Shown piece by piece: positions 6,139-30,726 of a DNA stretch of 64,000 bases. The DNA lies in contig NZ_PDKB01000008.1 of assembly GCF_003316695.1 (NCBI RefSeq), positions 62,001 through 126,000 on the forward strand. Reading direction: 5' to 3'. Below the pieces are notes generated by a model that had not been told where the DNA came from, ran no database searches, and was given only the letters and a program-made list of their open reading frames with translations. The translations under genes were made by a program, and so were the position numbers. The DNA is from Aliarcobacter vitoriensis (GTDB taxonomy: Bacteria; Campylobacterota; Campylobacteria; Campylobacterales; Arcobacteraceae). Positions within the stretch are counted from its first letter, which is position 1, and every line of letters starts with the position of its first letter.

Positions 6139-8235
6139 TTAAAATTTATAAGTCATACTTAAAGTTGCTGTTCTAGGGCTTCCAACTGTAAGCCATGATA
6201 TATCATAACTACTTGCTATATACTCTTTATCAAATAGATTATCTATATTTAATCTAAAATCTAGGTTCTTATTTACTTTATAATATGAAACTAATTTTGC
6301 TGTTGTATAACTTGGTAAATAAAAATCGTTCATATAATTTCCTGCTTTTTTACCCATATAAGTTGCACCTGCACCTATACCATAAGAACTATCTTGGCTT
6401 AGGCTATCTTCCCACATTAAAAGAAGAGAAGCACTATTTTTAGGAACATTTAAAAGTTCTTTACCTTGATAAGTATTATCTTTTATTACTTTTGCATTTG
6501 TATAACTATAATTTGCATTTATTCTTAGATTATCTGTTACTTTTCCATTTAAATCAAGTTCAACCCCTTTACTTTTAACTTTTCCTGCTGCAATAGAGAA
6601 TTGGTCATCAGTTGGATCTTTTGTTAATACATTTTTCTTTTCAATTTGATATACTGATAGTGTACTACCAAATCTTTTGTCTTCTGATTCAAATTTCAAA
6701 CCAGTTTCAATAGAAACTCCTTTTTCCCCTTCAAAAGTATCTCCATCTTTATCTGTTCCACCATTTGGTCTAAAAGATGTTCCAGATGTTGCATATACAG
6801 ACCACATATCATTTATCAAATATGTAATTCCAATTCTAGGAGAAAGAGCATAATCATTCTGTTCTATAAAACTATTATCTAAATGATTTGAATTATCCAT
6901 TTTTACTTCATCATATCTAAGTCCTGCAAGAAATCTAAAATCTTTATAAGATAACTCATCTTGAACAAATAAGGCAAGACCTTTTTGTTTTTCATACCTA
7001 TCTGTAGTTTTACTACCCAAACCTGAATTTAAAACTGTATAAGTTGGTTTTGAAAGGATATTATCTACTCTTACTGCATTATTGTTTGCATACATCGTAA
7101 AATCTTGTTCAAATCTATATGATTCCACACCAAATAAAATAGTATTTTTTATATCTCCTATTTCTTGAATACCTTTTAAATTAGCTTGAAATTGAATATC
7201 CTCTGAACTAATATCTCTATCTCTAACTCTTAATAATGCACTATTTCCTGTAATAGCCCTAGATGGAACAATTTCAGTAGCTTTACCTTTTGTAGTATTA
7301 TCTTTATAAGCAATTCCAACGCTACTACTCCAATTATCAGAGAAATAGTGGTCAAGTTTAAGCTGATGAGTTTGATTTTTTGAAGTTATATCTCCATCAT
7401 CTGGATTTCCAAGAAATGTTTTATGATTCATAATATTTTGACCATTAACTAAAGATATTCCTCTATCAAGTGGCGTTTTTTGTTCTATAAATTCTCCAAC
7501 ATACGTTATAAATGTATCATCACTAATAGTCCAAATTAACGATGGAGCTATTATATATCTTTGGCTATCTACATAGTCTCTAAAATTTCCTTTTTTTTCT
7601 AGTGCAGCTGTTAATCTATAAGCAAAAGATTCATTTATTGGTGCAGTTGAATCAAAAGCTACTCTATAAAAATCATAGCTTCCAATATCAGTTTTGATAT
7701 AGTGTTGGTTATCAAAATTTGGTTGTTTGGTAACAACATTTAAAGTTCCACCTGGTTCACTATTTCCATATAAAGAGCCAGATGGTCCTTTTAAAAATTC
7801 TATATTTTCAATATTTATTGTATCTCTAGGAGCATTATATCCACGATTATCTGCAAAACCATTTTTAAGTGTACTTAGACCAGTATTCTCATGTCCTTGA
7901 AACCCTCTAACTGAATAATTATCGTATAATCCACCAAAATTATTTTGTCTTGAAAGACCACTTACATAATCTAAAGCATCATCAAGTTTAACAAAATTTA
8001 AATCTTCAAGTGTTTGATTTGTTATAACCGAAACTGATTGAGCTGTTTCTCTTATTGGAGTGTCTGTTTTTGTGGCAGATTGAGTTCTTGTCTTGTAGTA
8101 GGCATTATTTCCACTTAAATAATTACCTCCAGTTTCTGAAACTGTTATTTCATCAAGTTTTGTAGTATTGTTCGCAAATACTAAAGAACTTGCAAATAAA
8201 GAGATAAATACAACTTTTCTTTTTGTTTCTAACAT
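6139..8235 (-). CDS. TonB-dependent siderophore receptor (FhuE/FpvA class)
   Basis: An outer-membrane beta-barrel of 698 residues. The signal peptide (about 1-21, ending VFAN) is followed by a TonB-box-like stretch DEITVSE, a plug domain with RETAQSVSVIT (about 62-72), VRGF near 108 and the LKGPSGSLYGNSEPGG block near 148-163, and a barrel that ends in the aromatic residue of TLSMTYKF. The plug wording matches the TonB-siderophore receptor class that includes FhuE and FpvA. TonB-ExbBD are not in the window. The upstream region has two copies of a TGCAACTnAGTTGCA-type palindrome that recurs upstream of the receptor gene at 28667. The substrate is not known. Confidence 0.9.
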   Translation of the reverse strand: MLETKRKVVFISLFASSLVFANNTTKLDEITVSETGGNYLSGNNAYYKTRTQSATKTDTPIRETAQSVSVITNQTLEDLNFVKLDDALDYVSGLSRQNNFGGLYDNYSVRGFQGHENTGLSTLKNGFADNRGYNAPRDTINIENIEFLKGPSGSLYGNSEPGGTLNVVTKQPNFDNQHYIKTDIGSYDFYRVAFDSTAPINESFAYRLTAALEKKGNFRDYVDSQRYIIAPSLIWTISDDTFITYVGEFIEQKTPLDRGISLVNGQNIMNHKTFLGNPDDGDITSKNQTHQLKLDHYFSDNWSSSVGIAYKDNTTKGKATEIVPSRAITGNSALLRVRDRDISSEDIQFQANLKGIQEIGDIKNTILFGVESYRFEQDFTMYANNNAVRVDNILSKPTYTVLNSGLGSKTTDRYEKQKGLALFVQDELSYKDFRFLAGLRYDEVKMDNSNHLDNSFIEQNDYALSPRIGITYLINDMWSVYATSGTSFRPNGGTDKDGDTFEGEKGVSIETGLKFESEDKRFGSTLSVYQIEKKNVLTKDPTDDQFSIAAGKVKSKGVELDLNGKVTDNLRINANYSYTNAKVIKDNTYQGKELLNVPKNSASLLLMWEDSLSQDSSYGIGAGATYMGKKAGNYMNDFYLPSYTTAKLVSYYKVNKNLDFRLNIDNLFDKEYIASSYDISWLTVGSPRTATLSMTYKF

Positions 8236-11083: not shown

Positions 11084-13063
11084 TTAAAATCTATAAGCTA
11101 ACTTGATACCAAATTCTGGTTCTTCTCTTAAAATAGTTGTTGTACCATTGAAATATGCACCTATTGCATCATGTTTTTTATCAAAAATATTATTCGCATA
11201 AAAATATATGTCGAAGTTATCGGCTTCATAACCTATTTTTGTATTTGCTAAAGTATAAGCTTTTTGTGAGTATTTATTTGCTTTGTCAAAATATGTCTTT
11301 CCATAACCATTAAAATCGATTCTGGCATATAATCCACTATTTGCTCTATATTGAGCTCCTAAATTAAAGTTATATTTTGGAGCAAGAGGATTGTAGTTTC
11401 CATCATAATTACCTACAACATCACTAAATTTATCAAAAGTTGTTTTATTGAAACCTCCACTTGCAAATAAACTTAATTCATTTGTCACTAAACCTTCAAT
11501 TTCTAACTCTATTCCTTTTGAAGTTGCACTTGCAGAGTTTGTTATAAAAACCGTGCCAACCATCAAAGTTTCTTCAACTTGCATATCTTTTATGTCCATA
11601 AAGTATATATTTGCATTGAATTTTAAACGATTATCAAAAAACATAGATTTAAATCCTAGATCATAAGATATTAAATTCTCTTCTTTGTAAGATTGTAAAT
11701 TAGTTGATGGTGCTAAAGGATTAAATCCACCACTTCTATATCCTTTTGCAACTGTAAAATAAGTCATTTGATTTTGGTTTATATCGTATTGAATTGCTAT
11801 TTTAGAAGAGATACTAGAAAAATCTTCTTCTAAATTTGTAGGAGTATTTTTAACTTTTAGTTCTTTTTTTTCCTTGTCATATCGAATACCACTATTTAAA
11901 GTCCAGCTATCACTTAAAGGATGAATAATATTAGCAAAAACTCCAATACTTTTTGAACTCATATCTTGTGGATTTGCAAAACCAGTAGGATTAAAAGGTG
12001 CAAATACTCTTGTGTATAAATCGTTATCTTGTTTATCTAAATAAATTCCAGATATAAATTCAGTTTTATTAAACATAGTTTCATATCTAAACTCTTGAGA
12101 AATTGTATCTAGTTTGTTTTGTTTATAAATATGTCTTAAAGTTAAAGGAGTAAAATCTGCATCTACTATAGCTTTATCCTTGTACTCTTTTTTTGTTGTT
12201 ATAGATTTTATTTTAGAGTTTTCATCTATATTATAATTTACATTTAAAGCAAAAGTTGTATCTTTTGGAGTAGAATTTCCTTTTAAATTTGAACTAACTT
12301 CTTTATTATTGTTTGTTGCACTTACCCAATTATGTGCTCCATTATCTTCTTTGTGAATTGATGATATTAAAGATATATCAAGATTATCAGTTGGAGTTGT
12401 TCTAAGGATTAATTTTCCATAATCACTTTTTTTGTCATTTTCATAGTCATTTGTAAGAGTGTTTTTTATAAAACCATCTTTTTGTTTATGTTTATAAGCT
12501 ATACCTACATAAAATTTATCTTTTACTATTGGAGTTGAAATATTTAGTCCAAAATCTCTTCTTCCTTCATTTCCGATTGTTGAAAAGAGTTTAGTTCGTA
12601 GTTCATTATCTGGTTGTTTTGTGATGATGTTTATAACTCCAGCTTCACTATTTTTACCATATAAAGTTCCTTGAGGTCCTCTTAAAACTTCAATTCTTTC
12701 TATATCTCCTAAAGAATCATCAAAGCCAAAAGCACTAGTATTTGGAACTCCATCTACATAAAGCCCAACTGGAGTAGAAAAAGATAAAACATTTCCACTA
12801 ATACCTCGAATTGAAGGCACAATTAATCCTTCTTGAGCAGTATTATAAAGCATCAAATTTGGAGTATATTTTGCAATATCTTCTAAACTTTCAATAGATT
12901 TATCTTCTATTGAAATATCATCAAAAGCAGAGATTGAAATAGGAACTTTTTGTATATTTTCCTCTTTCTTTTGTGCAGTTACTGTAATACTATCTAAGAT
13001 AGTTGTTTGTGCAAACAAGCAATTTGCTAGTAAAATAGAAATTGTTAGTTTTGATTTAAACAT
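11084..13063 (-). CDS. TonB-dependent receptor, first gene of uptake operon
   Basis: An outer-membrane receptor of 659 residues. The signal peptide ends at about residue 18 (LLANCLFAQ), then a TonB-box-like DSITVTAQK and a plug with NIQKVPISISAF, IRGISGN and RIEVLRGPQGTLYGKN (about 129-144). The barrel ends in FGIKLAYRF with a C-terminal aromatic residue. The plug words and barrel repeats resemble the receptors at 20675 and 25451, a FyuA-like/CirA-like group. It heads the operon with DUF2798, methyltransferase and permease genes and diverges from an AraC-type activator gene 109 bases away. The substrate is most likely a ferric siderophore. Confidence 0.9.
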   Translation of the reverse strand: MFKSKLTISILLANCLFAQTTILDSITVTAQKKEENIQKVPISISAFDDISIEDKSIESLEDIAKYTPNLMLYNTAQEGLIVPSIRGISGNVLSFSTPVGLYVDGVPNTSAFGFDDSLGDIERIEVLRGPQGTLYGKNSEAGVINIITKQPDNELRTKLFSTIGNEGRRDFGLNISTPIVKDKFYVGIAYKHKQKDGFIKNTLTNDYENDKKSDYGKLILRTTPTDNLDISLISSIHKEDNGAHNWVSATNNNKEVSSNLKGNSTPKDTTFALNVNYNIDENSKIKSITTKKEYKDKAIVDADFTPLTLRHIYKQNKLDTISQEFRYETMFNKTEFISGIYLDKQDNDLYTRVFAPFNPTGFANPQDMSSKSIGVFANIIHPLSDSWTLNSGIRYDKEKKELKVKNTPTNLEEDFSSISSKIAIQYDINQNQMTYFTVAKGYRSGGFNPLAPSTNLQSYKEENLISYDLGFKSMFFDNRLKFNANIYFMDIKDMQVEETLMVGTVFITNSASATSKGIELEIEGLVTNELSLFASGGFNKTTFDKFSDVVGNYDGNYNPLAPKYNFNLGAQYRANSGLYARIDFNGYGKTYFDKANKYSQKAYTLANTKIGYEADNFDIYFYANNIFDKKHDAIGAYFNGTTTILREEPEFGIKLAYRF

Positions 13064-13172: not shown

Positions 13173-14099
13173 ATGACTAAATTTTATTTAAAAGATTTGA
13201 TAACTTCAAATTTAAATAGTGAAAAAAATATTATAAAAAATAGTTTTCCCATAGAAGTAGGTAGTGATTATATGGAAAAAACACATATCCAAGATGGTTT
13301 GATTTTTTCAAAAACAAACTATAAATTAGAAAAAGAGATATTTTTAGAAGCAAAACAAAAAGAAAGAAAATTTGTAATTACAATATCACTTAATGGAAAT
13401 ACAAATTATATAAATAGTGATAAAAAAATCATTCCTTTTAAAGAGGGCTTTACAACAATATCATTATTTGAAGGGACACAAGGTTTTAGAGAGTTTAAAG
13501 ATAGATATATAAATCAAGTTAGATTGATATTAAGTGAAGAGTTTTTATTAAGGAATTTTAAAAAAAGTTTGGTTGAAAAATACTTTTATAATAGACAAAA
13601 TCTTCAATTATTAAGTTTTACAAAAACTTCTATTCATTCACAGCTTTTATTGAATGATATATTAAATTGCAAGTTTATTGGAGAGTTAGCAAGCATATAT
13701 AAACAAGGTAAAATTTTTGAATTATTATCTTTTGAAATTGCAAAACTTGAACAAAATGAAGATGATGTTTATCTTGATATGTATGATAAAAAAGCTCTTT
13801 ATAAAGCTAAAGAACTTTTATTACAAAATATACAAAATCCACCTTCAATTGTTGCTTTGTCTAAAATGGTTCATTTAAGTGAAGTAAAGCTAAAAAAAGG
13901 CTTTAAGCAACTATATAAAGCTAGTCCCTATCAATTTTTATTAACTCATAAAATGGATATAGCAAAAAATATGCTACAAAGTGGTGAATATAATATCAAT
14001 GAAATAGCTTTGCAAGTTGGTTATAAATTTGCAAATAATTTTACAAATGCTTTCTATAAAGAGTTTAAAATTCTCCCTAAAGATATTTTAAAAAAGTAG
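13173..14099 (+). CDS. AraC-family activator paired with receptor operon (PchR/YbtA type)
   Basis: A 308-residue cytoplasmic regulator. The C-terminal AraC DNA-binding domain (about 205-305) has two helix-turn-helices: one around IVALSKMVHLSEVKLKKGFK and one around INEIALQVGYKFANNFTNAF, followed by the family ending PKDILKK. The N-terminal part is a poorly conserved effector domain, as in PchR and YbtA, which sense the imported ferric siderophore and switch on the receptor gene. The gene diverges from the receptor operon at 11084 and has a direct-repeat operator upstream. Its 3' end overlaps mntP by 12 bases. The siderophore it would sense is unknown. Confidence 0.88.
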   Translation: MTKFYLKDLITSNLNSEKNIIKNSFPIEVGSDYMEKTHIQDGLIFSKTNYKLEKEIFLEAKQKERKFVITISLNGNTNYINSDKKIIPFKEGFTTISLFEGTQGFREFKDRYINQVRLILSEEFLLRNFKKSLVEKYFYNRQNLQLLSFTKTSIHSQLLLNDILNCKFIGELASIYKQGKIFELLSFEIAKLEQNEDDVYLDMYDKKALYKAKELLLQNIQNPPSIVALSKMVHLSEVKLKKGFKQLYKASPYQFLLTHKMDIAKNMLQSGEYNINEIALQVGYKFANNFTNAFYKEFKILPKDILKK

Positions 14100-14627: not shown

Positions 14628-15796
14628 AAAATCCCTTTTCTTTTATATAAAAGCGAGATTATAACCAAAATAGCAAAAATTAAACTTGCAAAAAAGAATG
14701 GAGCTTCGGGAGATATTTTATATAAAATTGTACTTAAAAGAGGTCCAACTATAATTCCAAAACCTTGAGCAGATGATACAGTTCCAGCTGCAACTCCTTG
14801 TTCATTTGCTTCTACACTATTTGAAGTGATTGCCATAAATGCAGGCATTATCATACCTAAACCAATAATTCCTATACAAAAAGCTAGAGTTAATTCAACT
14901 TGTGTAGAAATAATACCTATTAAAAAATATCCTATTGTTGCAAAAATTGAACCCAAAATAAGCCAAGTTATAGATTTGACATTTTTTAGTTTTGAAACAA
15001 TAATTTGAGTAGCTATAAATACAACTCCAATTATTGCTAAGATATATCCAGTAACTTTTGCAGCCTCAATTTCACCCATTTGAAATTTATCTAAGATAAA
15101 AAATCCTAAACAAACTTGTGAAGTAACAATACTAAACATAGTTATAAATGATGCAATCATAGGAAGTCGTAATCTCTTATCAAAAAAACGTAATGGAGTA
15201 TCTTTTGTTTTTTCTATTTTCTTATCTTTTTCTAAAAAGAAAAATACTATAAAAACTGCGATTAGTGGCAAAATTGCTGCTACATAAAGTGGAGTTGCAA
15301 GTCCAAAACTAGCCAATGTTCCACCTAAAACTGGTCCTAAAATCATACCTAAACCGTTTGATGCTCCAAGACTTGCCATATATGAAGTTCTTTTTTCTGG
15401 TGCAACCTTATCTGCAATTAAAGCATTTGATACAGGAGGAACAGCTGAATAAAATACTCCTATTAGCAATCTTGTAGTCATCAAAACTAAAAGTGAAACT
15501 ATCACAAGAGGAACAGTAACAACTGCATAATTTACAAATATTGCTAAAAGTAAATATGATATAAAAAATCCAAATATTGCAAGAAGTAAGATATTTTTTC
15601 TTCCGTGAATATCACTTTTTTTACCCCAAAATCTTGATAAAAATATCCAAGCAACTCCTGCAAGTGCAACCATAACTCCTGCGTGCCACTCTTGTAAGCC
15701 TAATTTTCGTATGATTGGACCAACTACGGCTAAAAAAGCCATCATTGAAGATACACATAAAATTGTAATAAGCATTAAAGGTTTAATCTCTTTCAC
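14621..15796 (-). CDS. MFS transporter, DHA1-like, in siderophore operon
   Basis: An inner-membrane carrier of 391 residues with about 12 membrane segments. The loop after the second helix has the MFS motif A variant SRFWGKKSDIHGRKN (about 54-68), and helix 5 has the LGMILGPVLGGTLA antiporter-like motif C near 148-161. Motif C is typical of proton-driven exporters, so this protein more likely exports than imports. It overlaps the upstream RhtX-like gene by 14 bases and mntP by 7. In a scavenging operon it could expel the iron-free siderophore after iron release, but it could also be a drug exporter. Confidence 0.75.
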   Translation of the reverse strand: MKEIKPLMLITILCVSSMMAFLAVVGPIIRKLGLQEWHAGVMVALAGVAWIFLSRFWGKKSDIHGRKNILLLAIFGFFISYLLLAIFVNYAVVTVPLVIVSLLVLMTTRLLIGVFYSAVPPVSNALIADKVAPEKRTSYMASLGASNGLGMILGPVLGGTLASFGLATPLYVAAILPLIAVFIVFFFLEKDKKIEKTKDTPLRFFDKRLRLPMIASFITMFSIVTSQVCLGFFILDKFQMGEIEAAKVTGYILAIIGVVFIATQIIVSKLKNVKSITWLILGSIFATIGYFLIGIISTQVELTLAFCIGIIGLGMIMPAFMAITSNSVEANEQGVAAGTVSSAQGFGIIVGPLLSTILYKISPEAPFFFASLIFAILVIISLLYKRKGILC

Positions 15797-17003
15797 TATT
15801 TTCCTTTTTTAAAATATATTCGATTTTTGTTGATAAAAGCATTGCTAATACTCCTATAAAAGCACAAATAAATATGATTTTCTCATAACCTAAAATTCCT
15901 GACATTGATACAGATAATGAGCTAAATAATATTCCTGAAAACATATAAATACTATGTTGTACTGCAAACTGTGAAGCTGGAGTTTTAGAAGATGATAAGT
16001 CCATCATAATTGTTGTCATAAGAACTTGTGATGGAGTATAAAACATAAATATAACTCCTATTATAAACATTACAAATATTTCATTATGGTGATATTTAAA
16101 TAGTAATAACATCATCAATATACCAACAATTTGTCCAATCGCAGCAAATATTAAAATATTTTTTTTACCAAATTTATTTATGACATAAGAAGCACCAAAA
16201 GATGCTAGAAATCCTATTCCATAACCTATTATATGAACAGCAAAACCAATTTTGGCTAAATCCCAACCTAAATCAACTAAAAGTGGAGTTGTAAGTCCAA
16301 AAGCTGAACTAATTGTAGCTGGATATAAAAAAAGTAAAATAAACCAAAGCTTTTTTTGTTTTGTTTTCCAAAAAGTTAAAAATTGTTTATAATCAATTTT
16401 TTCTATCAAATTTGGGTGTTTCATAGTTGGTTCAGTAAAAAAAAGTATTTGAATAAGTGAAATTGCAGTGATTATAGTCATAATATACATAGTAAAATGC
16501 CAACCAATTTTTGAGTATAGTATAAGTCCTATTCCTCCACCTAAAACCATACCAATAAGTCCACCAGATACTTTGATAGCATTTATTATAGAACGCTCTT
16601 TTTTAAATGTTATTTTAAATGCAAAAGCATCAAGTGCAACACTTTGTGAAGATGCAAAAAATGCAACCAATATTGCTAAAATTATGATTATTTTTAAGTG
16701 GTCATTTATATGCAAAATAGAGATTGAAAATAATGCTATGACCATCAAAGATTGGAAAATGATAATCCAAGCTCGATAGTGTCCCATTTTCTTAAAATAT
16801 ATTCTATCTATAAATGGAGCCCATAAAAATCTAAATACCCAAAAAAGCCCAAGCATATATATAAATCCAAGATTTTCTAAAGGAACACCATTTTGTCGTA
16901 AAATCCCTATAAAGGCTTCCATAAAGAAGCCTAAAGCTAAAAATTGAGTTGTATAAAGGCTAAACAACAAGGTCAAATTTGACCAAGTTAATTTTTTTTT
17001 CAT
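15783..17003 (-). CDS. MFS permease of the RhtX/FptX/YbtX group
   Basis: A 406-residue inner-membrane protein with about 12 helices. The start region (FMEAFIGILRQNGVPLENLG, then FRFLWAPFIDRIYF near 55-68) has the same pattern as RhtX and FptX, and as the permease at 8684. These permeases carry iron-loaded siderophores into the cytoplasm. The gene sits between a DHA1-type MFS gene and two ABC half-transporter genes, with 14-base and 4-base overlaps, so all are translationally coupled. Having both an MFS permease and an ABC pair in one operon is like the yersiniabactin locus (ybtPQX). Confidence 0.8.
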   Translation of the reverse strand: MKKKLTWSNLTLLFSLYTTQFLALGFFMEAFIGILRQNGVPLENLGFIYMLGLFWVFRFLWAPFIDRIYFKKMGHYRAWIIIFQSLMVIALFSISILHINDHLKIIIILAILVAFFASSQSVALDAFAFKITFKKERSIINAIKVSGGLIGMVLGGGIGLILYSKIGWHFTMYIMTIITAISLIQILFFTEPTMKHPNLIEKIDYKQFLTFWKTKQKKLWFILLFLYPATISSAFGLTTPLLVDLGWDLAKIGFAVHIIGYGIGFLASFGASYVINKFGKKNILIFAAIGQIVGILMMLLLFKYHHNEIFVMFIIGVIFMFYTPSQVLMTTIMMDLSSSKTPASQFAVQHSIYMFSGILFSSLSVSMSGILGYEKIIFICAFIGVLAMLLSTKIEYILKKENSERD

Positions 17004-18781
17004 ATAGTGCCTTTATTGTTTATGTTCCACTCTTTTACTCTTTGTTGTGCTTCAAACATAGAGTAATATTTCCCTTTTAAATCTACCAAATCTTTATGAT
17101 TCCCTTGTTCTTTTAATTCTCCATTTTCAATTACTAAAATATTGTTTGCATGAGAAATTGTTGTTAGTCTATGAGCTATTACTATTACAGTTTTGTTTTT
17201 TATCAGTTCATCTAAAGCACTTTGAACTGCTACCTCACTTTGTGTATCTAAAGCTGATGTTGGTTCATCTAAAATAACTATTGGGCTATCTTTTAAAATT
17301 GCTCTTGCTATACTTATTCTTTGTCGCTCACCACCACTTAAACTTCCACCGATTTCTCCAACTTTTGTATCATAACCTTTTGGTAATCTTGATACAAACT
17401 CATGTGCATAAGCAGCTTTTGAAGCAGCTAAAACTTCATCATCAGTAGCACTTGGTTTTCCCATTCTAATATTGTTTAAAATAGTATCATCAAACAAATA
17501 TACATCTTGAAAAACAACAGAGATAAACTTCATCAAAGTTTGTTGCTCCATTGCTTTTATATCAATATTTCCTATTTTTATAGTTCCGTTTGATGGGTCC
17601 GCATATCTCATAATAAGTTTTGTAATAGTTGTTTTTCCACTTCCAGATGGTCCAACAATAGCTGTAAGAGAGTTCTCTTTGATATTTATAGAGAAATCTT
17701 TTAAAACTTTTTGATTGTTGCTATCGTAGTTAAATGAAACATCATTAAAAGTAATATCAAAGTTTTTTGGTTTTTCTATTGGTTTTATAACTTCAAACTC
17801 TTTTATATCAAGTAATTTTTTAATATTTGTAAATCCAGCTTCCATTACATCAAGTGCAGAAGTAACTGCTAAGAAATTTGCCAAAGGTTCACTCAATCGT
17901 GCTAAGATAATCAAAAGAGCAAGTAAAGTAGCTATTGTTAATTCTCCTTTGAAGATAAAAAGTGTTCCAATAGCTAAAATAGTTAAAAACAAAAATTCAA
18001 TTAAAGTGTTCATTACAACCATTGGAATAGATGAACCAAATAAGCCTTTTTTTTGAATTTCTCTTACCGTTGAGATTGATTTTTGAAGTTGTTTGGCATT
18101 TGAACCAATTTGATTAATAGCTCTTAAAACTGGCAATCCTTGAATATACTCAATAGTATCTGCTTCAAGTGTTGCATTTGCTTTTGATACTTCTATTTTT
18201 TCCCATTTTGTACCATTTCTTTTCCATTTATAAATAGGATAGGCTAGTGGTATTGCAAATATAAGTACAATAGCCAAAATTGGATCTATAAAAAAAGTAG
18301 CTATTATGATAACAACTGGTACAACTGCTACTTCAAAAAACATTCCCGCAATTATTCCCATATGTAAAACAGAAGAATCAACGTCATTTGCTAATATTGA
18401 GTTTAGTTCGCCCGTTCTGTATGAGTAGAGTTTTTGTAAAGGCATAGTTTTTATTTTTTCGCCTAATTTTACTCTTAAATTATGAGTTGTTTCTACTAAA
18501 TCACCTGAATAGTTAAAATCACTTGCTTTCCACTTAAAGATAAAAGAAAATATACTTAAAATAACAATAAGGCTGAACCAAAATAGGGTATTGTTTAAGT
18601 TAAATTCATCTACAAAAATAGTATTTAACAAAGGATAAAAAAATGCAAATGCCAATCCTTGGAAAACATACGACATAATAAAATAAAAATAGCTTTGTTT
18701 AATTAAATATTTTTTATCTTGTGCAATTTCAAGAGTGATTTTGTACGAGTCCCAAAATGAAGATAGTTTTTCTTTACTCAT
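17000..18781 (-). CDS. ABC half-transporter, YbtQ-like
   Basis: A fused membrane-ATPase half-transporter of 593 residues. Six membrane helices occupy about 1-310; the nucleotide-binding domain has Walker A GPSGSGKTT near 377, signature LSGGERQRISIARAIL near 478 and Walker B with VILDEPTSALD near 497-507, then an HRL switch. The fold is that of exporters, but the pair with the next gene resembles YbtP/YbtQ and IrtA/IrtB, exporter-type ABC proteins that work as importers of ferric siderophores. It overlaps its partner gene by 8 bases and the RhtX-like gene by 4. Transport direction is inferred from family and context. Confidence 0.85.
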   Translation of the reverse strand: MSKEKLSSFWDSYKITLEIAQDKKYLIKQSYFYFIMSYVFQGLAFAFFYPLLNTIFVDEFNLNNTLFWFSLIVILSIFSFIFKWKASDFNYSGDLVETTHNLRVKLGEKIKTMPLQKLYSYRTGELNSILANDVDSSVLHMGIIAGMFFEVAVVPVVIIIATFFIDPILAIVLIFAIPLAYPIYKWKRNGTKWEKIEVSKANATLEADTIEYIQGLPVLRAINQIGSNAKQLQKSISTVREIQKKGLFGSSIPMVVMNTLIEFLFLTILAIGTLFIFKGELTIATLLALLIILARLSEPLANFLAVTSALDVMEAGFTNIKKLLDIKEFEVIKPIEKPKNFDITFNDVSFNYDSNNQKVLKDFSINIKENSLTAIVGPSGSGKTTITKLIMRYADPSNGTIKIGNIDIKAMEQQTLMKFISVVFQDVYLFDDTILNNIRMGKPSATDDEVLAASKAAYAHEFVSRLPKGYDTKVGEIGGSLSGGERQRISIARAILKDSPIVILDEPTSALDTQSEVAVQSALDELIKNKTVIVIAHRLTTISHANNILVIENGELKEQGNHKDLVDLKGKYYSMFEAQQRVKEWNINNKGTI

Positions 18782-20573
18782 TATTTTCTCCTTTTTTATC
18801 TTCTATCTTTTCTAAGTTCCATGAACTAGCTTTTTCATAGTTACTCCAAAGTTTGCTATAAACACCTTTAGTATTTAACAGATCTTCGTGTTTTCCAATT
18901 TCAGATATTTTTCCTTCATCAAATACTACTATTTGTTCAGAGTCTTTGATAGTTGAAAGTCTATGAGCTATCATAATTACAGTTTTATTTACTGTTAAGT
19001 TTGCTAAAGCTTTTACTATCTCTTCTTCATTTTCTGGGTCTGCAAAAGCTGTTGCTTCATCTAAAACAATGATTGGAGTATTTCGCAAAATTGCTCTAGC
19101 AATTGTAATTCTTTGTTTTTGCCCACCAGATAGGTTTGCTCCTCTATCTCCTGCAAGTGTTTCATAACCATCTGGTAAACTTAAAATAAAATCGTGGATT
19201 TGTGCAGCTTTTGAAGCATTTATAATCTCTTCATCTGTTGCATTTGTGTTTGCCATTTTTATATTGTTATAAATTGTATCTTGGAATAAAAAAGTATCTT
19301 GAAATACAAAAGAAACTGTATCCATAAGATTTTCACTACTAACTTCTTTTATATCAATACTACCTATTTTAATCGCTCCACTACTTACATCCCAAAATCT
19401 AGGAATGAGTTTTGCTACTGTACTTTTTCCTGCTCCACTTGGACCTACAAGAGCAGTTACACTTCCACTTGATACTTTAAAATTTATATCTTTTAAAGCA
19501 TAATTTTCAACATTGTCATACTTAAATGAAACATTTTTAAACTCTATATCAAAACTATTTATAGTTTTTGGCTCTTTTGCAATTTCAAGTGCTTTTACAC
19601 TTAAAACTTCTTGAATTTTAAGTGCTGAGGTTTGAGATTTTTTAATATGGTTATTTAACCACATAAGTGGCATCATAGCATCTGCCATTCCTGTACTTAA
19701 AAACAAAGCACTTATAAAAGCAAATAACTCCAAAGAACTAAAGTTTAAAAGAAAAATAGCAGTGATAATAACTGCTAAAAGTGTTGGAAGTGGACTTAAT
19801 ATAATCATTCCAAGTTTTGCACTAAAAGCACTTACACTCATCCAATGATGAAGATTGTTTTTAAACTCAATCAAAGCATCATTATATCTTTTAAATGAAG
19901 TTGTACCATCATCAAAAGTTCGTACAACTGGCATAGCTTGTGCAAACTCTATAACAGCTCTGTTTATATTTGATTGACTTTGTTCATACTTTATTCTTAA
20001 ACTTTTTGAGTCTTTCATAGCAACTGCCATAGTAATCCAACCTAAGATAAATACGCTAAGTGTTGCAAGAGCAAATCTATAATCAATCACTAAAAGTATA
20101 ATTAAAGTAGTAATTGGTGCAACTATACTTTTTGCAATCATTGGAGTGCTATCTGCAACAAAAGCATGTAAAGTTTTTACATCATCTTGAACTACTTTTT
20201 TTAAAGCTCCTGAACCATTTGATATAATATATCCTAAAGGCAACTTTGCTAAATGTAAAGATAGTTTTGTTCGCAAAATTTGTTCTAGATGAAAAGCACC
20301 CAAGTGTGAAACTGCAAAGGCTCCAAATCTTGATAAAAAAGCAATGATAGTTAAAAGTGCTAATAAAAGTATAGTATTAACTAAATTTAGTTCAAATCCA
20401 AAAACAACTAAAGGAGTGTTTTGTAAAATATTTGTTAGTGCAAATGATAAAAGTAATAGGCTTAAAATCAAGCTTATTGCTCCAATACTTGCTAATAACA
20501 TAGCCATTCTTATTTTAAATTTAACAGGTGACATAATAGCCCAAAGTCCCTGTTTTTGTTCTTCTTTTTTCAT
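18774..20573 (-). CDS. ABC half-transporter, YbtP-like
   Basis: A 599-residue half-transporter with six membrane helices (about 20-310) and a C-terminal ATPase domain. Walker A GPSGAGKST lies near 378, signature LSGGQKQRITIARAIL near 480 and the Walker B region reads IVLDEATAFADPENE near 500-514; the ADPENE continuation is typical of the YbtP/IrtA siderophore subgroup, in place of the common ALD of exporters. It likely forms a heterodimer with the overlapping gene at 17000 and imports a ferric siderophore in the inner membrane. A 101-base gap with a 12-base-pair hairpin separates it from the receptor gene upstream. Confidence 0.85.
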   Translation of the reverse strand: MKKEEQKQGLWAIMSPVKFKIRMAMLLASIGAISLILSLLLLSFALTNILQNTPLVVFGFELNLVNTILLLALLTIIAFLSRFGAFAVSHLGAFHLEQILRTKLSLHLAKLPLGYIISNGSGALKKVVQDDVKTLHAFVADSTPMIAKSIVAPITTLIILLVIDYRFALATLSVFILGWITMAVAMKDSKSLRIKYEQSQSNINRAVIEFAQAMPVVRTFDDGTTSFKRYNDALIEFKNNLHHWMSVSAFSAKLGMIILSPLPTLLAVIITAIFLLNFSSLELFAFISALFLSTGMADAMMPLMWLNNHIKKSQTSALKIQEVLSVKALEIAKEPKTINSFDIEFKNVSFKYDNVENYALKDINFKVSSGSVTALVGPSGAGKSTVAKLIPRFWDVSSGAIKIGSIDIKEVSSENLMDTVSFVFQDTFLFQDTIYNNIKMANTNATDEEIINASKAAQIHDFILSLPDGYETLAGDRGANLSGGQKQRITIARAILRNTPIIVLDEATAFADPENEEEIVKALANLTVNKTVIMIAHRLSTIKDSEQIVVFDEGKISEIGKHEDLLNTKGVYSKLWSNYEKASSWNLEKIEDKKGENNE

Positions 20574-20674: not shown

Positions 20675-22852
20675 TTAAAATTTATAAATTGCTCCAACTC
20701 CAAACTTTCTTGGTTCATTAAAACCAACCCAAGATGAGCCAGATTTAGACATATAAGATATTACATAATCTTCATCTGTGATATTTTTAACATATCCATA
20801 AATATCAAAATTTCCTACTTTATATCCAACTTTTGCATTTGCAGTTATTCCCCCATCTGCTCTTATCAATCTACCATTATTTGCTCCATCGCTATAACTT
20901 GTATTTCCTCTTGCATTTAAATCTACTCTTCCATAAAATCCACTATCAGCTAGATATGAAACACCTAAACTTGCTGTATAAGAAGGTGTGTTTTCTATCT
21001 TTTCTCCATTATATTTTCTATTTCCATCATCATAGTCATCATATTTTGCTTGTATTAGTCCCACACTTCCCAAAAGACTTAAATTGTCAGTTAAAAAATA
21101 AGTTCCATCCATTTCTATACCTTGAGAGTGAGCTTTTTTAGCATTTCCAGTAGCAAATACAGTTCCTCCCATAAGTTGTTTATAAATATGAATATCTTTT
21201 ATATCCATTCTAAATATACTTGTATTTAAAGCAAAACTATCTCCTATATATTTTGCTCCTATTTCATAGTTTATAGATTTTTGTGCTTCAAATGTATTTT
21301 CTTCACTTATATTATTTGAGGGATAATAGTTAAATCCTCCTGGCATATAACCTTTTGAGATTGAAACATAAGTTGTAAGATTGTCATTGATTTTATATGA
21401 AAGTGCAGCTTTGGGTAAAAAAGAATTCCAAGTTTTTTTATCACCATAATTTACATCAGGAAATTGCATACCTGCAAAACTAGATTTTGCTATTACATCT
21501 ATCTCTTTTTTTATTTTTTGATATCTTCCCCCTAAAGTAAGTTCAAAATCTTCTCCTAAAGGAATCATTGTTTGTCCAAAGATAGCATAAGTTTTACTAT
21601 CGGTTTTAGAGTAGGCATCTCCAAAATATACTCCTTGTCCCATACCATAATATGACATATCTGCCCATTGTTCTCCACCATAAGGACCTTGTTCTCTTTT
21701 TTCTTTATCAAAATATAGTCCAGTTACCCATTTTATATCTTGATTTTTACTTGAAAGCTTAAACTCTTGAGATAAAGTTTCAAGATCAGTATAATTCCAT
21801 TGTCCTAATCCATCTTCTTGTCCTTGATTTGCTCTATTATCTATATCAAATTCTGCATCTAAATCCATCTTTTTATGAGTTGTAGTAGAGTCAAATTTTA
21901 CTTTGTCAAGTTCATAAGAGAGATTTAAAGCTTGAGATTGAACTTTTGTTTTATCCCAAGCTGGTACATCAAAGCTTACATTTTTAGCATCATCTCTTTT
22001 TAAACTATTTATATCAAGATTAGGGTCTGAACTGAACCCATCCATAAAGTATTTTTTCTCATAGTTATCAGCTATTGTTAATCTAGCTGAAAAATTATCT
22101 GTTGGTTTCCACAGTAAAAAACCGCTTGTTTTTCTATCATTTTTTTCATTTGCATCTTTTCTCATATTTGAATAATTGTTTGTAATCCAACCATCAGTAT
22201 GATAGAAAGAGCCATTTATTCCTGCAAATAGTTTATTATCAACTATCGCTCCACTTGTATTTAGCTTTGTATTAAAAGTATTATCATTTCCATATTCTGC
22301 TTCTATACTTCCACTCCATTTATTTTTAGGAGTTTTTGTTGTGATATTTATAACAGCACCAATGGCATCTTTCCCATATAATGTTCCTTGGGGACCTCTT
22401 AAAACTTCTATTTGCTCTACATCTGCTAAACTTGGATTAAAATCAAATCTATCATAGTATGGAACACCATCTACATATATAACAACAGGATTGTTATTTG
22501 TAAACATAGAACTATTTAATCCTCTAAATGAAACTGCTGCTCCATTTGCTGCATTTAATATATTCATATTTGGAACTTCTTTTACTATATCTGATATATT
22601 TTTAATCCCTTTTTGTTCAATCTCTTCTTCAGATATTACAGAGATACTTTGAGGAACATCTTTTATATTTTCCTCCATTTTATTTGCACTAACAGTTATT
22701 TCTTCTAATTTTGTAGTTTCATTTGCATATAGCAGTGAACTTACAAATAGTGATGCAAGTATTAACTTTCTTTCTTTCTTTCTTTCACTTTTTATTCCTT
22801 TACTAAACTTTAAATAAGTTTGAATTATAATAATAATATTTGTCAATTTCAA
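20675..22852 (-). CDS. TonB-dependent receptor, probably phase-variable
   Basis: An outer-membrane receptor. The mature part has a TonB-box-like EEITVSANK, the plug words IKDVPQSISVIS, FRGLNSSMF and QIEVLRGPQGTLYGKDAIG, and a barrel that ends in FGVGAIYKF; it resembles the receptors at 11084 and 25451 (FyuA-like group). The open frame runs up to a TTG at 22852, but that start has no ribosome binding site. The best start is GTG at 22788, seven bases after AAGGA, followed at once by five AAAG units. In this assembly that GTG frame stops after eight codons. With three or six units it would read into a normal signal peptide. So the gene is probably switched by repeat slippage and is off here. Confidence 0.85.
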   Translation of the reverse strand: MKLTNIIIIIQTYLKFSKGIKSERKKERKLILASLFVSSLLYANETTKLEEITVSANKMEENIKDVPQSISVISEEEIEQKGIKNISDIVKEVPNMNILNAANGAAVSFRGLNSSMFTNNNPVVIYVDGVPYYDRFDFNPSLADVEQIEVLRGPQGTLYGKDAIGAVINITTKTPKNKWSGSIEAEYGNDNTFNTKLNTSGAIVDNKLFAGINGSFYHTDGWITNNYSNMRKDANEKNDRKTSGFLLWKPTDNFSARLTIADNYEKKYFMDGFSSDPNLDINSLKRDDAKNVSFDVPAWDKTKVQSQALNLSYELDKVKFDSTTTHKKMDLDAEFDIDNRANQGQEDGLGQWNYTDLETLSQEFKLSSKNQDIKWVTGLYFDKEKREQGPYGGEQWADMSYYGMGQGVYFGDAYSKTDSKTYAIFGQTMIPLGEDFELTLGGRYQKIKKEIDVIAKSSFAGMQFPDVNYGDKKTWNSFLPKAALSYKINDNLTTYVSISKGYMPGGFNYYPSNNISEENTFEAQKSINYEIGAKYIGDSFALNTSIFRMDIKDIHIYKQLMGGTVFATGNAKKAHSQGIEMDGTYFLTDNLSLLGSVGLIQAKYDDYDDGNRKYNGEKIENTPSYTASLGVSYLADSGFYGRVDLNARGNTSYSDGANNGRLIRADGGITANAKVGYKVGNFDIYGYVKNITDEDYVISYMSKSGSSWVGFNEPRKFGVGAIYKF
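22766..22786 (-). repeat. Tetranucleotide tract, five AAAG/CTTT units, at receptor start
   Basis: On the plus strand this is five CTTT units plus one C. On the coding strand the tract begins in the GTG start codon at 22788-22786 and runs to the signal peptide. A change of one unit shifts the frame by one base. Units of 3, 6 or 9 put the receptor in frame with the GTG. Confidence 0.85.
22786..22800 (-). promoter_or_regulatory. Ribosome binding site and GTG start of the phase-variable receptor
   Basis: The coding strand reads AAGGA, seven bases, then GTG. It is the only well-placed Shine-Dalgarno and start pair before the signal peptide, and it decides that the AAAG tract lies inside the coding region. 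Confidence 0.65.
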
Positions 22853-25442: not shown

Positions 25443-25463
25443 ATACTCTTTTAAAAAGAGTAT
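25443..25463 (-). terminator. Hairpin at the 3' end of receptor gene 25451
   Basis: Perfect inverted repeat ATACTCTTTT-A-AAAAGAGTAT that spans the stop codon of the receptor gene, followed on the minus strand by TTTATTC. Likely terminator; the T-run is short. Confidence 0.5.
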
Positions 25464-27568
25464 TTTAATCCAACGCCTATAAATCTTCCTTTTCCATAAG
25501 TTAATTGTCTAAATTCAGCCATTTCTTCAAGAGCAACTATATAACTTTCATCTGTAATATTTTTAACATAAGTATATACATCAAAATCATCAAACAAATA
25601 ACCAATTTTTGCATTTGCAATAGTATAAGAGTCTTGTTTTAAACTATTTTGTGCATTAAAATACATATCTCCTTGATTTCTTATATCAACTCTTCCATAA
25701 AATCCACTATCACCATAATATGAAACTCCAAAATTTGCTGAATGAGAAGGTGTTCTTTCTATTTTATTGTTTTTATTGTTATTGTCACTTGCATCAATAA
25801 AATTTGAGTAAGTTGCTTTCATTATACCAATAGAAGTATCTACTCTCCAATTATTGTTTATATTGTAAGCTAGTTCCAATTCTACTCCTTTAGAATCAGC
25901 TTCTCCCGCATTTGAAGTGTACATCATACCAGTTGTTTTATCAGTGCTATAAACATGAATATCTTTTATATCTAAATAAAATAATGATGTTGCAAATAAA
26001 AGTTTATCATCTAAAAATGACCCTTTTAATCCTACTTCATAGTTCATTGATGTTTGAGCATCAAATCTATTATCTTCTTCATTTCCAGAAGAAGCATAAT
26101 TATTATAACCTCCTGGAAGATAACCTTTTGAGGCAGTCACATAAGTTGTTAGTTTATTATCAAATTTTTTTGAAATAGCAACTTTTGGTAAAAAACTATT
26201 CCAAGTATGCTCTTCATCAAATTGAAAAATTGGATTAGCTGATACATTTATAGGATTGTAATAATAATCTAAGTTCATCTGTTTTTTTATTTTTTGGTAT
26301 CTTCCACCTAGAGTTAATTCATAACTTTCCCCAAAAGGGATAATAACTTGTCCAAAAGCTGCATAAGTAGAACTATCTGCTTGTGATACAGAGTTAAATT
26401 TCACTCCAACTCCAGCACCAAATGGATCTCCTAATAAATACCCTGGATATTCATTACCATAATTGTCGAAATCAAAACTATCTTTTTCAAAATATATTCC
26501 AGTAATGTATCTAAATAGATTATTTTCACCAGCTAGTCTAATTTCTTGAGAAAAATTTTTAGATTTTGCATCTTGGAACATAGACATTCCATCATAACTT
26601 GGATTGTTTCCTAAATCAACATCCCAAGTTCCATCTATATCCATATTTTTATTTGCTGTTATTGATGTCAAAGAATTATTATCATCAAAAGAGTATTCCA
26701 TTTTTAGTGATTGGGCATTTGATTTATTTTTCATATAAGTATCAGTTTCGTAATTTACATCTTTAAAATCTTTTCTTTTAAAATCGTTTATATTTTGTGT
26801 TTGATGAACAGCTCCACCTTCAAAACCATATTTATAATCTTTGTCATTAAAAATATTTAAAGCCATAGTAAAATTATCTGTGGCTTTAAAAGTTAAGTTT
26901 GCATTTAACTGATGAAACTCTTTTCTTGTAGAATCTTTGTCTTGATTTGGATTATGATTTGTTTGCCAACCATCATCTTTTCCAACTTTTCCATTTATTC
27001 CTAAAAAAAGCTTATCAGTAATTACTGCTCCATTTGCATTAAAAGTTGTTTGCATAAAGTTATCTGTACCATATTCTGCTCCAATATGTCCATTTAACTC
27101 ATTTTTATGTTTTTTTGTGATGATGTTTATAACTCCACCAATACTATCTTTTCCATATAATGCACCTTGAGGTCCTCGTAAAATCTCAACTTGTTGTGCA
27201 TTTTGTAAAGATGCATCAAAACCATAAACACTACTATGTGGAACTCCATCTATATAAATAACAACTGGATTATTATTTGTAAAAACAGAAGTGTTTATAC
27301 CTCTAAAATTAACTCTTTCAGAATACATATATGTTGAAGATAGATTTGGTATTTTTTCAATAATATCTGGAACACTTTTTATTGCTTTTTCTTCCATATC
27401 GTTTTCACTAACTACACTTATACTTTGAGGTACATCTTGGATATTTTCTTCCATTTTATTTGCACTTACAGTGATTTCTTCCAAAGTAGTTGTTTTTGAA
27501 TCATTTGCCAAACATATTTGACTGGCAATAAGTGACATAATTGTAAATTTTGATAATGCTTTATACAT
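25451..27568 (-). CDS. TonB-dependent receptor, third of the FyuA-like paralogues
   Basis: A 705-residue outer-membrane receptor. The signal peptide ends near residue 22 (SQICLAND), then a TonB-box-like EEITVSANK and plug words IQDVPQSISVVS, FRGINTSVF and QVEILRGPQGALYGKDSIGG (about 118-137); the barrel ends in FIGVGLKYSF. It is closely similar in wording to the receptor at 20675, so one probably arose by duplication. It starts with ATG behind GGGAG and has no repeat tract. It stands alone on its strand, divergent from the AraC gene at 27686 by 117 bases. The ligand is unknown, probably another ferric siderophore. Confidence 0.9.
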   Translation of the reverse strand: MYKALSKFTIMSLIASQICLANDSKTTTLEEITVSANKMEENIQDVPQSISVVSENDMEEKAIKSVPDIIEKIPNLSSTYMYSERVNFRGINTSVFTNNNPVVIYIDGVPHSSVYGFDASLQNAQQVEILRGPQGALYGKDSIGGVINIITKKHKNELNGHIGAEYGTDNFMQTTFNANGAVITDKLFLGINGKVGKDDGWQTNHNPNQDKDSTRKEFHQLNANLTFKATDNFTMALNIFNDKDYKYGFEGGAVHQTQNINDFKRKDFKDVNYETDTYMKNKSNAQSLKMEYSFDDNNSLTSITANKNMDIDGTWDVDLGNNPSYDGMSMFQDAKSKNFSQEIRLAGENNLFRYITGIYFEKDSFDFDNYGNEYPGYLLGDPFGAGVGVKFNSVSQADSSTYAAFGQVIIPFGESYELTLGGRYQKIKKQMNLDYYYNPINVSANPIFQFDEEHTWNSFLPKVAISKKFDNKLTTYVTASKGYLPGGYNNYASSGNEEDNRFDAQTSMNYEVGLKGSFLDDKLLFATSLFYLDIKDIHVYSTDKTTGMMYTSNAGEADSKGVELELAYNINNNWRVDTSIGIMKATYSNFIDASDNNNKNNKIERTPSHSANFGVSYYGDSGFYGRVDIRNQGDMYFNAQNSLKQDSYTIANAKIGYLFDDFDVYTYVKNITDESYIVALEEMAEFRQLTYGKGRFIGVGLKYSF

Positions 27569-27685: not shown

Positions 27686-28636
27686 ATGTCTTCAAATGAA
27701 ACAATTTTTCAATTTTGTGATAATCAAGGAATGATGTTTCTTCCAAAAGAGAAAGTTGAATTTTCTATTTTTGATAAAAAAGTGGTTGATGATGTCTATT
27801 TTGTAAAAGCAAACCTGACTTTAAAAGATGATATTACAGTTCAATCAAAGTCACAAGTTGATGGAATATTACTTGATTTTAATCTTATTGGAGATGTAAG
27901 TTATAAATCAAAAATCCATAACTACGGCTTTTCAACTTCAAATAATAGAACAGATATAGAACTAATAAAAGAAGAAAGTAGCGAATCAAAAGCAAAAAGG
28001 GGTGAAATAAATAAAATTTCGTTGATTGTAAAAAAAGATTTTTTAGTTAAAAATTTGCCATTGAATAAAAAAAGTGATTATGTTCTAAATGCTTTAGAAA
28101 AAAATAGTTGCCAAGAACTTCTAAAAAGCGAAGCTACAAATTTTTTAACAAATAAGATTTTAAATCAACTTTACCATTTTGATATGTATGAAGGAAATCT
28201 AGGAGATATTTTTTTACAATCAAAAGTTTTAGAGCTTTTGTATTGTGAGTTTTTTGAACTTTTTAAAGAAAAAACAATATCTAAAAATAGTATTGTAAAG
28301 TTTGATGAAAAAGATATACAAGCTTTATATAAAGCAAAAGAGTTGATTTTATCTTTGCAAGAAGATTTTACAATATCAACTTTATCAAAAAAAGTTGCAT
28401 TAAATGAGTTTAAATTAAAAACAGGATTTAAAAAATATTTTAACACCAGTCCTGGAAATTTGATGATTGAACAAAAAATGTTAAAAGCTAAACAACTACT
28501 TGAAACAGGCGAATATAATATAAATGAAGTTTCTATTATTTTAGGATATAAATATCAACAAAGTTTTACGGCTACATTTAATAAATATTTTAGATTTAAT
28601 CCAAAAGAACTTTTAAAAATAAAAAAATATTATTAA
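27686..28636 (+). CDS. AraC-family activator divergent from receptor 25451
   Basis: A 316-residue regulator. The AraC DNA-binding domain fills about 215-314: first helix-turn-helix around ISTLSKKVALNEFKLKTGFK, second around INEVSIILGYKYQQSFTATF, ending NPKELLKIKKYY. The N-terminal effector half is divergent from those of its paralogues at 13173 and 22901, which fits recognition of a different siderophore. It is separated from the receptor gene by 117 bases that hold a palindrome and direct repeats. A perfect 12-base-pair hairpin follows the stop. Confidence 0.87.
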   Translation: MSSNETIFQFCDNQGMMFLPKEKVEFSIFDKKVVDDVYFVKANLTLKDDITVQSKSQVDGILLDFNLIGDVSYKSKIHNYGFSTSNNRTDIELIKEESSESKAKRGEINKISLIVKKDFLVKNLPLNKKSDYVLNALEKNSCQELLKSEATNFLTNKILNQLYHFDMYEGNLGDIFLQSKVLELLYCEFFELFKEKTISKNSIVKFDEKDIQALYKAKELILSLQEDFTISTLSKKVALNEFKLKTGFKKYFNTSPGNLMIEQKMLKAKQLLETGEYNINEVSIILGYKYQQSFTATFNKYFRFNPKELLKIKKYY

Positions 28637-28666: not shown

Positions 28667-30667
28667 TTAAAATTCATATTTTAAAGCAACTCTATAATCT
28701 CTTCCCATTTCATGTCTATATTCACCCATTCTATCAAGTGTTGTATGTTTTCCATAATCTTTATTTGTTAGGTTATTTATAGTAGCAAAAAGTGTTAAAT
28801 TTTTTAAGACTTGATATTTTGCATTGATATTATGAGTTGTATAACCACTTCTTATTAAAGGGTCATTTATTCCAGAAACAGCATTTAAAGTATAATCTAG
28901 TACCAGATTATTTATAGGTTCAATTCCAATATTCCAAATAAAATTTTCACTATCGTAAGCTCCAACTCTTCTTAAAGTGATTGATTCATCAACTCCTGCC
29001 ACTAAACCTGAGTCATCATTTATAGTATTTGTTTTGATTTTTGTATATCCTAAACTTGTAGAGAAAATATCATAAGAATAAGATAGTTTTAATTCATAAC
29101 CTTTAGATTCAAATTCACTAGAACTATTAAAAATATCAACTAAAGTTCTTCCTCCTTCTCCACTTCCACCATTTGTAGCTTTTGCAATTATTAAATCTTT
29201 AATTTCAGTTTTAAATAAATTTGCATTAAAAACTAAATAATCATCAGATAATAAAAGACTATTTTTATCATATTTATATCCAACTTCATATCTTTTAGAT
29301 TTTTCAGCATCAAGTTTTGATGAGTATTTTGTATCTTTTTTGATTTGTGTCATCCAAGTAAAAGGAATAATCCCATTCATTCTACTACTTTGCCCATAAT
29401 TTGCATATATTAAAGAGTTAGAAGTTATTTCATAATCAAGTCCAATATTTGGGGAAAAAGTATCATCACTAGCTTTTCCAAACCCAGTTTCAAATTCATA
29501 ATCATCAAATCTTAATCCATAATCAATACCTAAAGACCCAATTGAAGTTCTATTTTGTATAAATAAAGCTTGATTTTGCGATTTTACAGGAGAATATTTT
29601 GTAATTGCCTTATCTAAATTATGTGGATCAAAGCTTCCTTTTCCATCTTCTTTTTGAAGTTCTGCACCAACAGAAACTCTGTTTTGAGATTTTGCTATGT
29701 CAAAATCAAAGTGATTTTGAATTTTTAACCCAAAAGCATCATTTTTGTACTCTTTATGATTTGTTTCTCTATCAATTTTTACTTCACTAAAATTTAAATT
29801 TGTTTCTAAATTTATTAAATTATTTGGATTATAGTTGTGATTTAAAGCATAATTTGTTGTTGTCATTATGATTTTTTCAAGCAGTGTTGGATCAGTAGCC
29901 AATCCAACATCGCTTCCAGCTCTTCCCCACTGATAGATTCCACTATTTTCATTTTGGCTAATAGTTGTTCTTAAATCATTATCTTTTACATCTAATAAAC
30001 TTAATTTAAATAGATAATCTCTATCTTTATACCCAGTTGCTAAAACTTTATTTCCAGCTCCATTTTCATAATTTTTGCTATTTACTCCACCGATAGTTAT
30101 ATAAGTTCCTAAATGTTCATTAAAAACTTGATAGGCTGTTGCATTTCCAAGTTTTTGTTCGGCATTTGTGTTATATCCTACTTTAAAAATGGCTCCATAA
30201 TTTTTATCACCTTTTACAAAATCTTGTGCATCTTTTGTAGTCATATTTATGCTTCCTCCTAGTGCTCCACCTTTTGAGGCATCAGGAGATGTTTTAATAT
30301 TTACAACTTTTAGTAAATCTGGATTAACACCAAGTTCATTTCCTCTATGTTGGAACATATTTTTACCTTGTTTTGCTCCATCTAAAGATATATTAAAGTT
30401 TGAACTTTCTAAACCTCTTATATAGATTCTTTGTGCATTTTTAGCACCACCACCAGTGTCAGTTGAAGAGTTGTTTTCGAATAAATCAAAAAAAGAATTT
30501 GCTTGATTTTGTTCAGTTTTTGCTAAATTTACATCAATAGAATTTGTTTTTATTTCTTTATTCTCTTGTACTTTAATCTCGTTAAGAACAGTTGTTTGTC
30601 CAAATAATATGCAAGGTAATATAGCATAAGATAAAGAGATAATTTTTCTAGGTTTATTTGTTTTCAT
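28667..30667 (-). CDS. TonB-dependent receptor next to Ni/Co efflux genes
   Basis: A 666-residue outer-membrane receptor. ATG 30667 follows AAGGA and begins a clear signal peptide (MKTNKPRKI to LFGQ); the frame is open 14 codons further up, but that start would lie in the operator palindromes. The plug has FFDLFENN, YIRGLESSNF, SLDGAKQGKNMFQHRGN and GALGGSINMTT, a wording closer to heme/enterobactin receptors (HmuR, CfrA types) than to the three FyuA-like receptors here. The barrel ends in RVALKYEF. Upstream are two palindromes shared with the receptor at 6139. The neighbouring dmeR/dmeF genes suggest a metal link, but the substrate is open. Confidence 0.88.
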   Translation of the reverse strand: MKTNKPRKIISLSYAILPCILFGQTTVLNEIKVQENKEIKTNSIDVNLAKTEQNQANSFFDLFENNSSTDTGGGAKNAQRIYIRGLESSNFNISLDGAKQGKNMFQHRGNELGVNPDLLKVVNIKTSPDASKGGALGGSINMTTKDAQDFVKGDKNYGAIFKVGYNTNAEQKLGNATAYQVFNEHLGTYITIGGVNSKNYENGAGNKVLATGYKDRDYLFKLSLLDVKDNDLRTTISQNENSGIYQWGRAGSDVGLATDPTLLEKIIMTTTNYALNHNYNPNNLINLETNLNFSEVKIDRETNHKEYKNDAFGLKIQNHFDFDIAKSQNRVSVGAELQKEDGKGSFDPHNLDKAITKYSPVKSQNQALFIQNRTSIGSLGIDYGLRFDDYEFETGFGKASDDTFSPNIGLDYEITSNSLIYANYGQSSRMNGIIPFTWMTQIKKDTKYSSKLDAEKSKRYEVGYKYDKNSLLLSDDYLVFNANLFKTEIKDLIIAKATNGGSGEGGRTLVDIFNSSSEFESKGYELKLSYSYDIFSTSLGYTKIKTNTINDDSGLVAGVDESITLRRVGAYDSENFIWNIGIEPINNLVLDYTLNAVSGINDPLIRSGYTTHNINAKYQVLKNLTLFATINNLTNKDYGKHTTLDRMGEYRHEMGRDYRVALKYEF

Positions 30668-30693
30668 AATTTTCCTTTTATAAGATAAATTAA

Positions 30694-30708
30694 TGCAACT
30701 AGGTTGCA
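30694..30708. promoter_or_regulatory. Palindrome TGCAAC-TAG-GTTGCA upstream of receptor 28667
   Basis: Inverted repeat with 6-base arms and a 3-base centre, 27 bases before the receptor ATG. One base pair of the inner arm deviates from the perfect copies at 8311 and 30727. Confidence 0.55.
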
Positions 30709-30726
30709 AATGTGAATAATATTATT

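Follow-up and report, generated by a model that had tools for sequence, protein, structure and literature searches.

Phase-variable genes for TonB-dependent receptors are, to our knowledge, known one or few at a time. In Haemophilus influenzae the hgp genes for hemoglobin and hemoglobin-haptoglobin receptors carry an array of CCAA units within the 5' coding region, which switches the gene by moving the reading frame. These arrays are usually longer than the one described here, and they vary among isolates. The HmbR and HpuA receptors of Neisseria have poly-G tracts in their coding sequences, and one or a few receptors per genome are switched in this way. Poly-G tracts also make up the phasome of Campylobacter jejuni and C. 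coli, which belong to the same phylum as the species studied here and likewise have a low G+C content; a survey of these tracts found that 9G is the commonest length (52%), with 10G at 30% (PMC6321876). The (GACGA)4 array of the H. influenzae hsdM gene matches much longer tetranucleotide tracts in its rate of switching (PMC2651432). It is a short array of about 20 bases, like the one described below, although its unit is a pentanucleotide and the gene is a restriction-modification gene, and its switching rate is high.

The locus described here lies in a window of 64,000 nucleotides, the whole stretch of DNA that was analysed, from Aliarcobacter vitoriensis. Like the hgp genes it has a tetranucleotide array in the 5' coding region of a TonB-dependent receptor gene, where a switch would be of the frame type. 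It differs from them in that the unit is AAAG, there are five units, the variation is putative, a siderophore-type receptor is encoded and the host belongs to the Campylobacterota. A direct check of the sequence shows that the minus strand runs AAAGGA-ATAAAAA-GTG-(AAAG)5-TTAATACTTGCATCA..., followed by the signal peptide and the receptor. The Shine-Dalgarno-like AAAGGA (22796..22801) stands seven bases (ATAAAAA) 5' of the GTG start codon (22786..22788), and the (AAAG)5 array (22766..22785) follows within the 5' coding region. This is the layout that a sequence-only reading of the same DNA had claimed, with a ribosome binding site, seven bases, GTG, five AAAG units and a signal peptide. Its number of units stands, its span for the array (22766-22786) does not; the exact span is 22785-22766, base 22786 being the last base of the GTG.

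The repeat between the start codon and the mature protein is uninterrupted, and its unit size is not a multiple of three. With five units the peptide translated from the GTG is (V/M)KERKKES, and a TAA codon read directly from the minus strand (22762..22764) closes the frame after eight codons, so no full-length receptor can come from the GTG by ordinary translation. When the number of units is changed and the frame is again translated from the GTG, it runs for 701 codons with three units, 705 with six and 709 with nine, and it reaches a stop within 25 codons with one, two, four, five, seven or eight. The receptor frame (22768-20675) has no stop and no frameshift. The eight-codon peptide MKERKKES, the off state in this assembly, the read-through at three or six units and the otherwise intact receptor frame had all been proposed earlier, and each of them was borne out, with nine units as a further permissive number. 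Ribosomal frameshifting on the array was also considered and rejected, as reading of the sequence gave no tandem slippery heptamer that would fit a -1 shift.

The receptor frame (20675..22768, minus strand) encodes a signal peptide, a TonB plug (PF07715) and a beta-barrel (PF00593). The NCBIfam model for TonB-dependent siderophore receptors (TIGR01783) matches it with 226.2 bits, above the curated cut-off of 223.5. By measures taken from its sequence the gene shows no decay: dN/dS between the receptor and five orthologs is 0.19-0.28, compared with 0.20 between two of the orthologs, and its rate of change is not significantly raised in Tajima relative-rate tests (largest chi-square 3.4). If it is off, the gene would have been so only for a short time, or it would be on often enough to be maintained.

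An AraC-family regulator (PF12833; 22901..23878, plus strand) lies upstream of the receptor gene and is divergent from it. Downstream, on the same strand as the receptor, come two genes for ABC transporters and two for MFS proteins. The first ABC transporter gene (18774..20573), which encodes a membrane part plus an ATPase, is 101 bases 3' of the receptor and is overlapped by the second (17000..18781); both were assigned by Pfam. One MFS transporter (15783..17003) is RhtX/FptX-like or AmpG-like, both matches being below cut-off. As judged from the gene families, this arrangement of regulator, receptor, ABC and MFS genes is compatible with siderophore uptake. A Fur box in the promoter was rejected as a candidate; scored against an E. 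coli-type 19-base consensus, the promoter matches at 13/19 positions in the window and 13-15/19 in homologs, but 13/19 occurs 63 times in the window. Four further TonB-dependent receptors without repeat tracts are present in the same 25 kb (6139-30709), at 6139-8235, 11084-13063, 25451-27568 and 28667-30709. Two of these four face AraC-like regulator genes (13173-14099 and 27686-28636).

The genome from which the window comes contains 58 TonB plug domains, compared with 2-35 in the other genomes of the genus. Poly-G runs of at least nine bases gave 34 hits in it, which correspond to 32 tracts, whereas 30 other genomes of the genus have 0-5 tracts each. All 32 tracts (loci L095-L126, for example C65:6500, C33:73048, C63:128582 and C8:33264) were extracted and classified. 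TonB receptor genes carry 29 of them at their 5' ends, and three are elsewhere. The placement of poly-G in a receptor coding sequence is as in HmbR and HpuA, whereas the genome described here has 29 such tracts, nearly all of them G9 and off. As in the Campylobacter phasome 9G is the commonest length, whereas poly-G is here almost confined to TonB receptors, of which the main text of the Campylobacter survey names none (PMC6321876).

The receptor tracts fall into two classes. Class A has seven tracts, inside the signal peptide of the receptor and 44-48 bases after the ATG, all of which are G9. Class B has 22 tracts in a second receptor family, about 183 bases after the ATG, 21 of which are G9 and one G10. 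Plug and barrel were found by Pfam in representatives of both classes. The tract puts 27 of the 29 genes out of frame and leaves two in frame (C8:33264 and C44:38480), a count in which the class B copy C5:81265, which begins at a contig end without its ATG, was scored as out of frame by analogy with other copies. Downstream of the tract, 25 of the 29 genes continue for over 640 codons with no stop. Three of the remaining four reach a contig end within 54 codons, and the class A gene C12:36943 stops after 147 codons.

Several further features of these loci were recorded. A class A paralog without a tract is present in the same genome (C63:133976). Two class B copies at the ends of contigs C7 and C18 (L102 and L114) have one extra base before the tract, which gives them a different in-frame tract length. 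An STN domain was considered for class B and rejected, since there is no Pfam match even in the in-frame copy of G014, a related species. At C63:110175 (L122) a G10 tract follows the start of a receptor-like signal peptide; no receptor frame comes after it, and the locus is an apparent remnant beside an intact receptor. A 242-codon open frame at C65:19537 (L126), not recognised as a receptor gene, has a G9 tract at its 5' end and is possibly switchable. Neighbouring FecI or FecR genes were looked for at six poly-G receptor loci by reading the neighbouring frames, and none were recognised; the receptor genes at these six loci stand alone among other genes. Contigs of the assembly break within receptor paralogs (C22:186636, C10:1, C9:50260 and C6:65830) and have identical ends of 127 bases, which is probably the assembly k-mer. 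Portions of at least two further receptors are missing from the assembly.

Twenty-seven out-of-frame receptor genes, mostly intact and each at a mutable repeat, can hardly be independent dead genes, and they are best explained as switchable and mostly off. We infer from the tracts and their frames that the poly-G loci of this species switch. Receptors that are off by a repeat are the rule in this genome, and the AAAG locus is probably one more of them, with another type of repeat. Phase variation at the AAAG locus is plausible, and it is strengthened by the presence of 29 poly-G receptors, 27 of them out of frame, in the same genome; with this context switching is likelier than it would seem from the AAAG locus alone. 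We hypothesise that the AAAG array, situated between the GTG and the signal peptide, gates translation of the TonB-dependent siderophore receptor. Five units would be the off state, and three or six units would bring the full-length receptor back. Slipped-strand mispairing would add or remove AAAG units, giving a population with many off cells and few on cells. The AAAG receptor would be one member of a large, randomly switched set, most of which have G9 and are assembled out of frame. We favour this explanation, in which the locus is a phase-variable siderophore receptor gated by its array and one of many receptors switched at random, with moderate confidence.

There are also points against switching at the AAAG locus. 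The other switch-like receptors of the genome carry poly-G and not tetranucleotides, and five units are few relative to most H. influenzae switches. The switching of hsdM (GACGA)4 shows that short arrays are capable of it (PMC2651432).

The array is more than a product of chance. Under a fourth-order Markov model of the window, the number of arrays expected in 2.43 Mb is about 1e-4 for (AAAG)5 and about 0.03 for five units of any tetranucleotide, which is far below one. No other tetranucleotide run of at least 14 bases occurs within the 64,000 nucleotides of the window, and nowhere else in the genome do four or more AAAG units stand in a row. The array is also the only (AAAG)5 among 31 genomes of the genus, and one of two among 104 genomes of the family. 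In the 30 other genomes of the genus (AAAG)5 is absent and the homologs have no array or two units, so the AAAG array is not a conserved switch.

The gene would be on if TTG 22852, TTG 22846 or a non-canonical codon of the receptor frame, ATA for instance, served as the start of translation, the array then adding harmless residues at the N-terminus. The receptor frame is indeed open from TTG 22852 through the array, but we consider this explanation very unlikely. Both TTG codons (22844..22852, minus strand) lie upstream of a TATAAT -10 element (22824..22829, minus strand), which is conserved in the homolog alignment and stands 35 bases 5' of the GTG, and they are therefore probably outside the transcript. 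They have no fitting ribosome binding site, the N-terminal extension that they would encode is not conserved in homologs, and the frame that they use is interrupted by stops in the matching region of the homologs. The next start in the receptor frame after the array is ATG 22678, which is already beyond the signal peptide. In an alignment of the window with 11 homologous start regions, comprising orthologs in five other species, paralogs from the same genome and two G014 paralogs, the GTG sits in the start-codon column. The ortholog in G012 (L003) likewise starts with GTG. TATAAT stands 35 bases before the GTG here, and a count by hand gave the same spacing to the ATG in those paralog start regions that are closest. 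The match in the start column, the position of the TTG codons 5' of the -10 element, the stops in homologs and the late position of ATG 22678 together point to the GTG, which is very probably the true start, with the assembled allele off. The sequence-only reading had likewise preferred the GTG to TTG 22852, which it placed in promoter-like sequence, and the conserved TATAAT agrees with both of these claims.

The assembled allele may also be off through a recent ordinary loss of function, which is the main rival to switching, although we judge it rather unlikely. Here a rearrangement of the start region would have turned ATGG(AAAG)2 or a similar start into GTG(AAAG)5, with no programmed switching, and paralogs would cover the siderophore. 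The nearest start regions read AAAGGAATAAAA-ATG-G-(AAAG)2-TTAATACTTGCATCACTATTTGTAAGTTCACTG, in frame, and such ancestral-type ATGG(AAAG)2 starts were located in paralogs at contig ends of the same genome (C22:186636 and C10:1) and in G014. The window allele differs from them by a net 11 additional bases and a change of start codon, not by whole units. No other finding speaks as strongly against a history of unit steps alone or in favour of a one-off frameshift, and because of it a recent fixed frameshift stays the main rival. The array has grown from about two units to five, but the loss of frame also includes changes other than whole units. A loss of function is further favoured by the array being private to this genome among the 31 of the genus, and by related copies of the receptor, at least four of them, in the same genome. 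Opposed to it are the fully intact and constrained coding region and the perfect five-unit array, since an array of this kind in itself points to repeated slippage. In many receptor genes of this genome a mutable repeat breaks the frame while the downstream part is intact, and so many independent recent losses are hard to credit. It is highly improbable that the start region was misassembled, has a wrong consensus or shows a minority allele picked by the assembler. The genome is a draft in 66 contigs, rich in receptor repeats and with breaks inside receptor genes, but the locus is deep within a 130 kb contig, the closest long copy in the rest of the genome shares only 79% identity with it, and a tetranucleotide array of 20 bases is atypical of short-read errors.

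Returning to switching, G9 is the commonest length in Campylobacter (PMC6321876), so a frame that is off at G9 would yield mostly-off receptors by mutational drift alone. A wider proposal, which we put forward tentatively, is that about thirty TonB-dependent receptors are held in reserve behind slippage-prone repeats (mostly G9, and one AAAG), the commonest length being off and rare cells expressing one or a few receptors each. Such a repertoire would resemble antigenic variation, and may give up some nutrient uptake for protection from phages, bacteriocins or recognition by the immune system. If this is true, receptor phase variation would be a strategy at the level of the repertoire, in a genome where about half of the 58 receptors stand behind mutable repeats and almost all of that half are off. 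The receptor family would then be a clean system in which to ask why bacteria conceal receptors for nutrients, be it under pressure from phages, toxins or the immune system. Counts of iron-uptake genes from such genomes would overstate expression per cell, and automated annotation may label many such receptor genes as frameshifted. Taken alone the AAAG locus is a candidate addition to a known type of switched receptor; the receptor repertoire that surrounds it is the unusual part.

No report of phase variation in Arcobacteraceae, or of poly-G receptors in the genus, was found in the open-access literature. Three class B homologs are present in the related species G014, one with G8 (out of frame), one with G10 (in frame) and one with the interrupted tract GGGGGAGGG (out of frame), so tract length does vary within the class B receptor family. 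The G014 paralog with the ATGG(AAAG)2 start (L042, G014:C1:2213960-2216039) has a frameshift near residue 500 that splits the gene in two. In a third species (G029) a receptor at C53:17483 (L019) has an in-frame G9 tract in its signal peptide and looks switchable. The same genome has a G11 tract directly upstream of a lipoprotein-like gene (L128, C15:9409), which also looks switchable.
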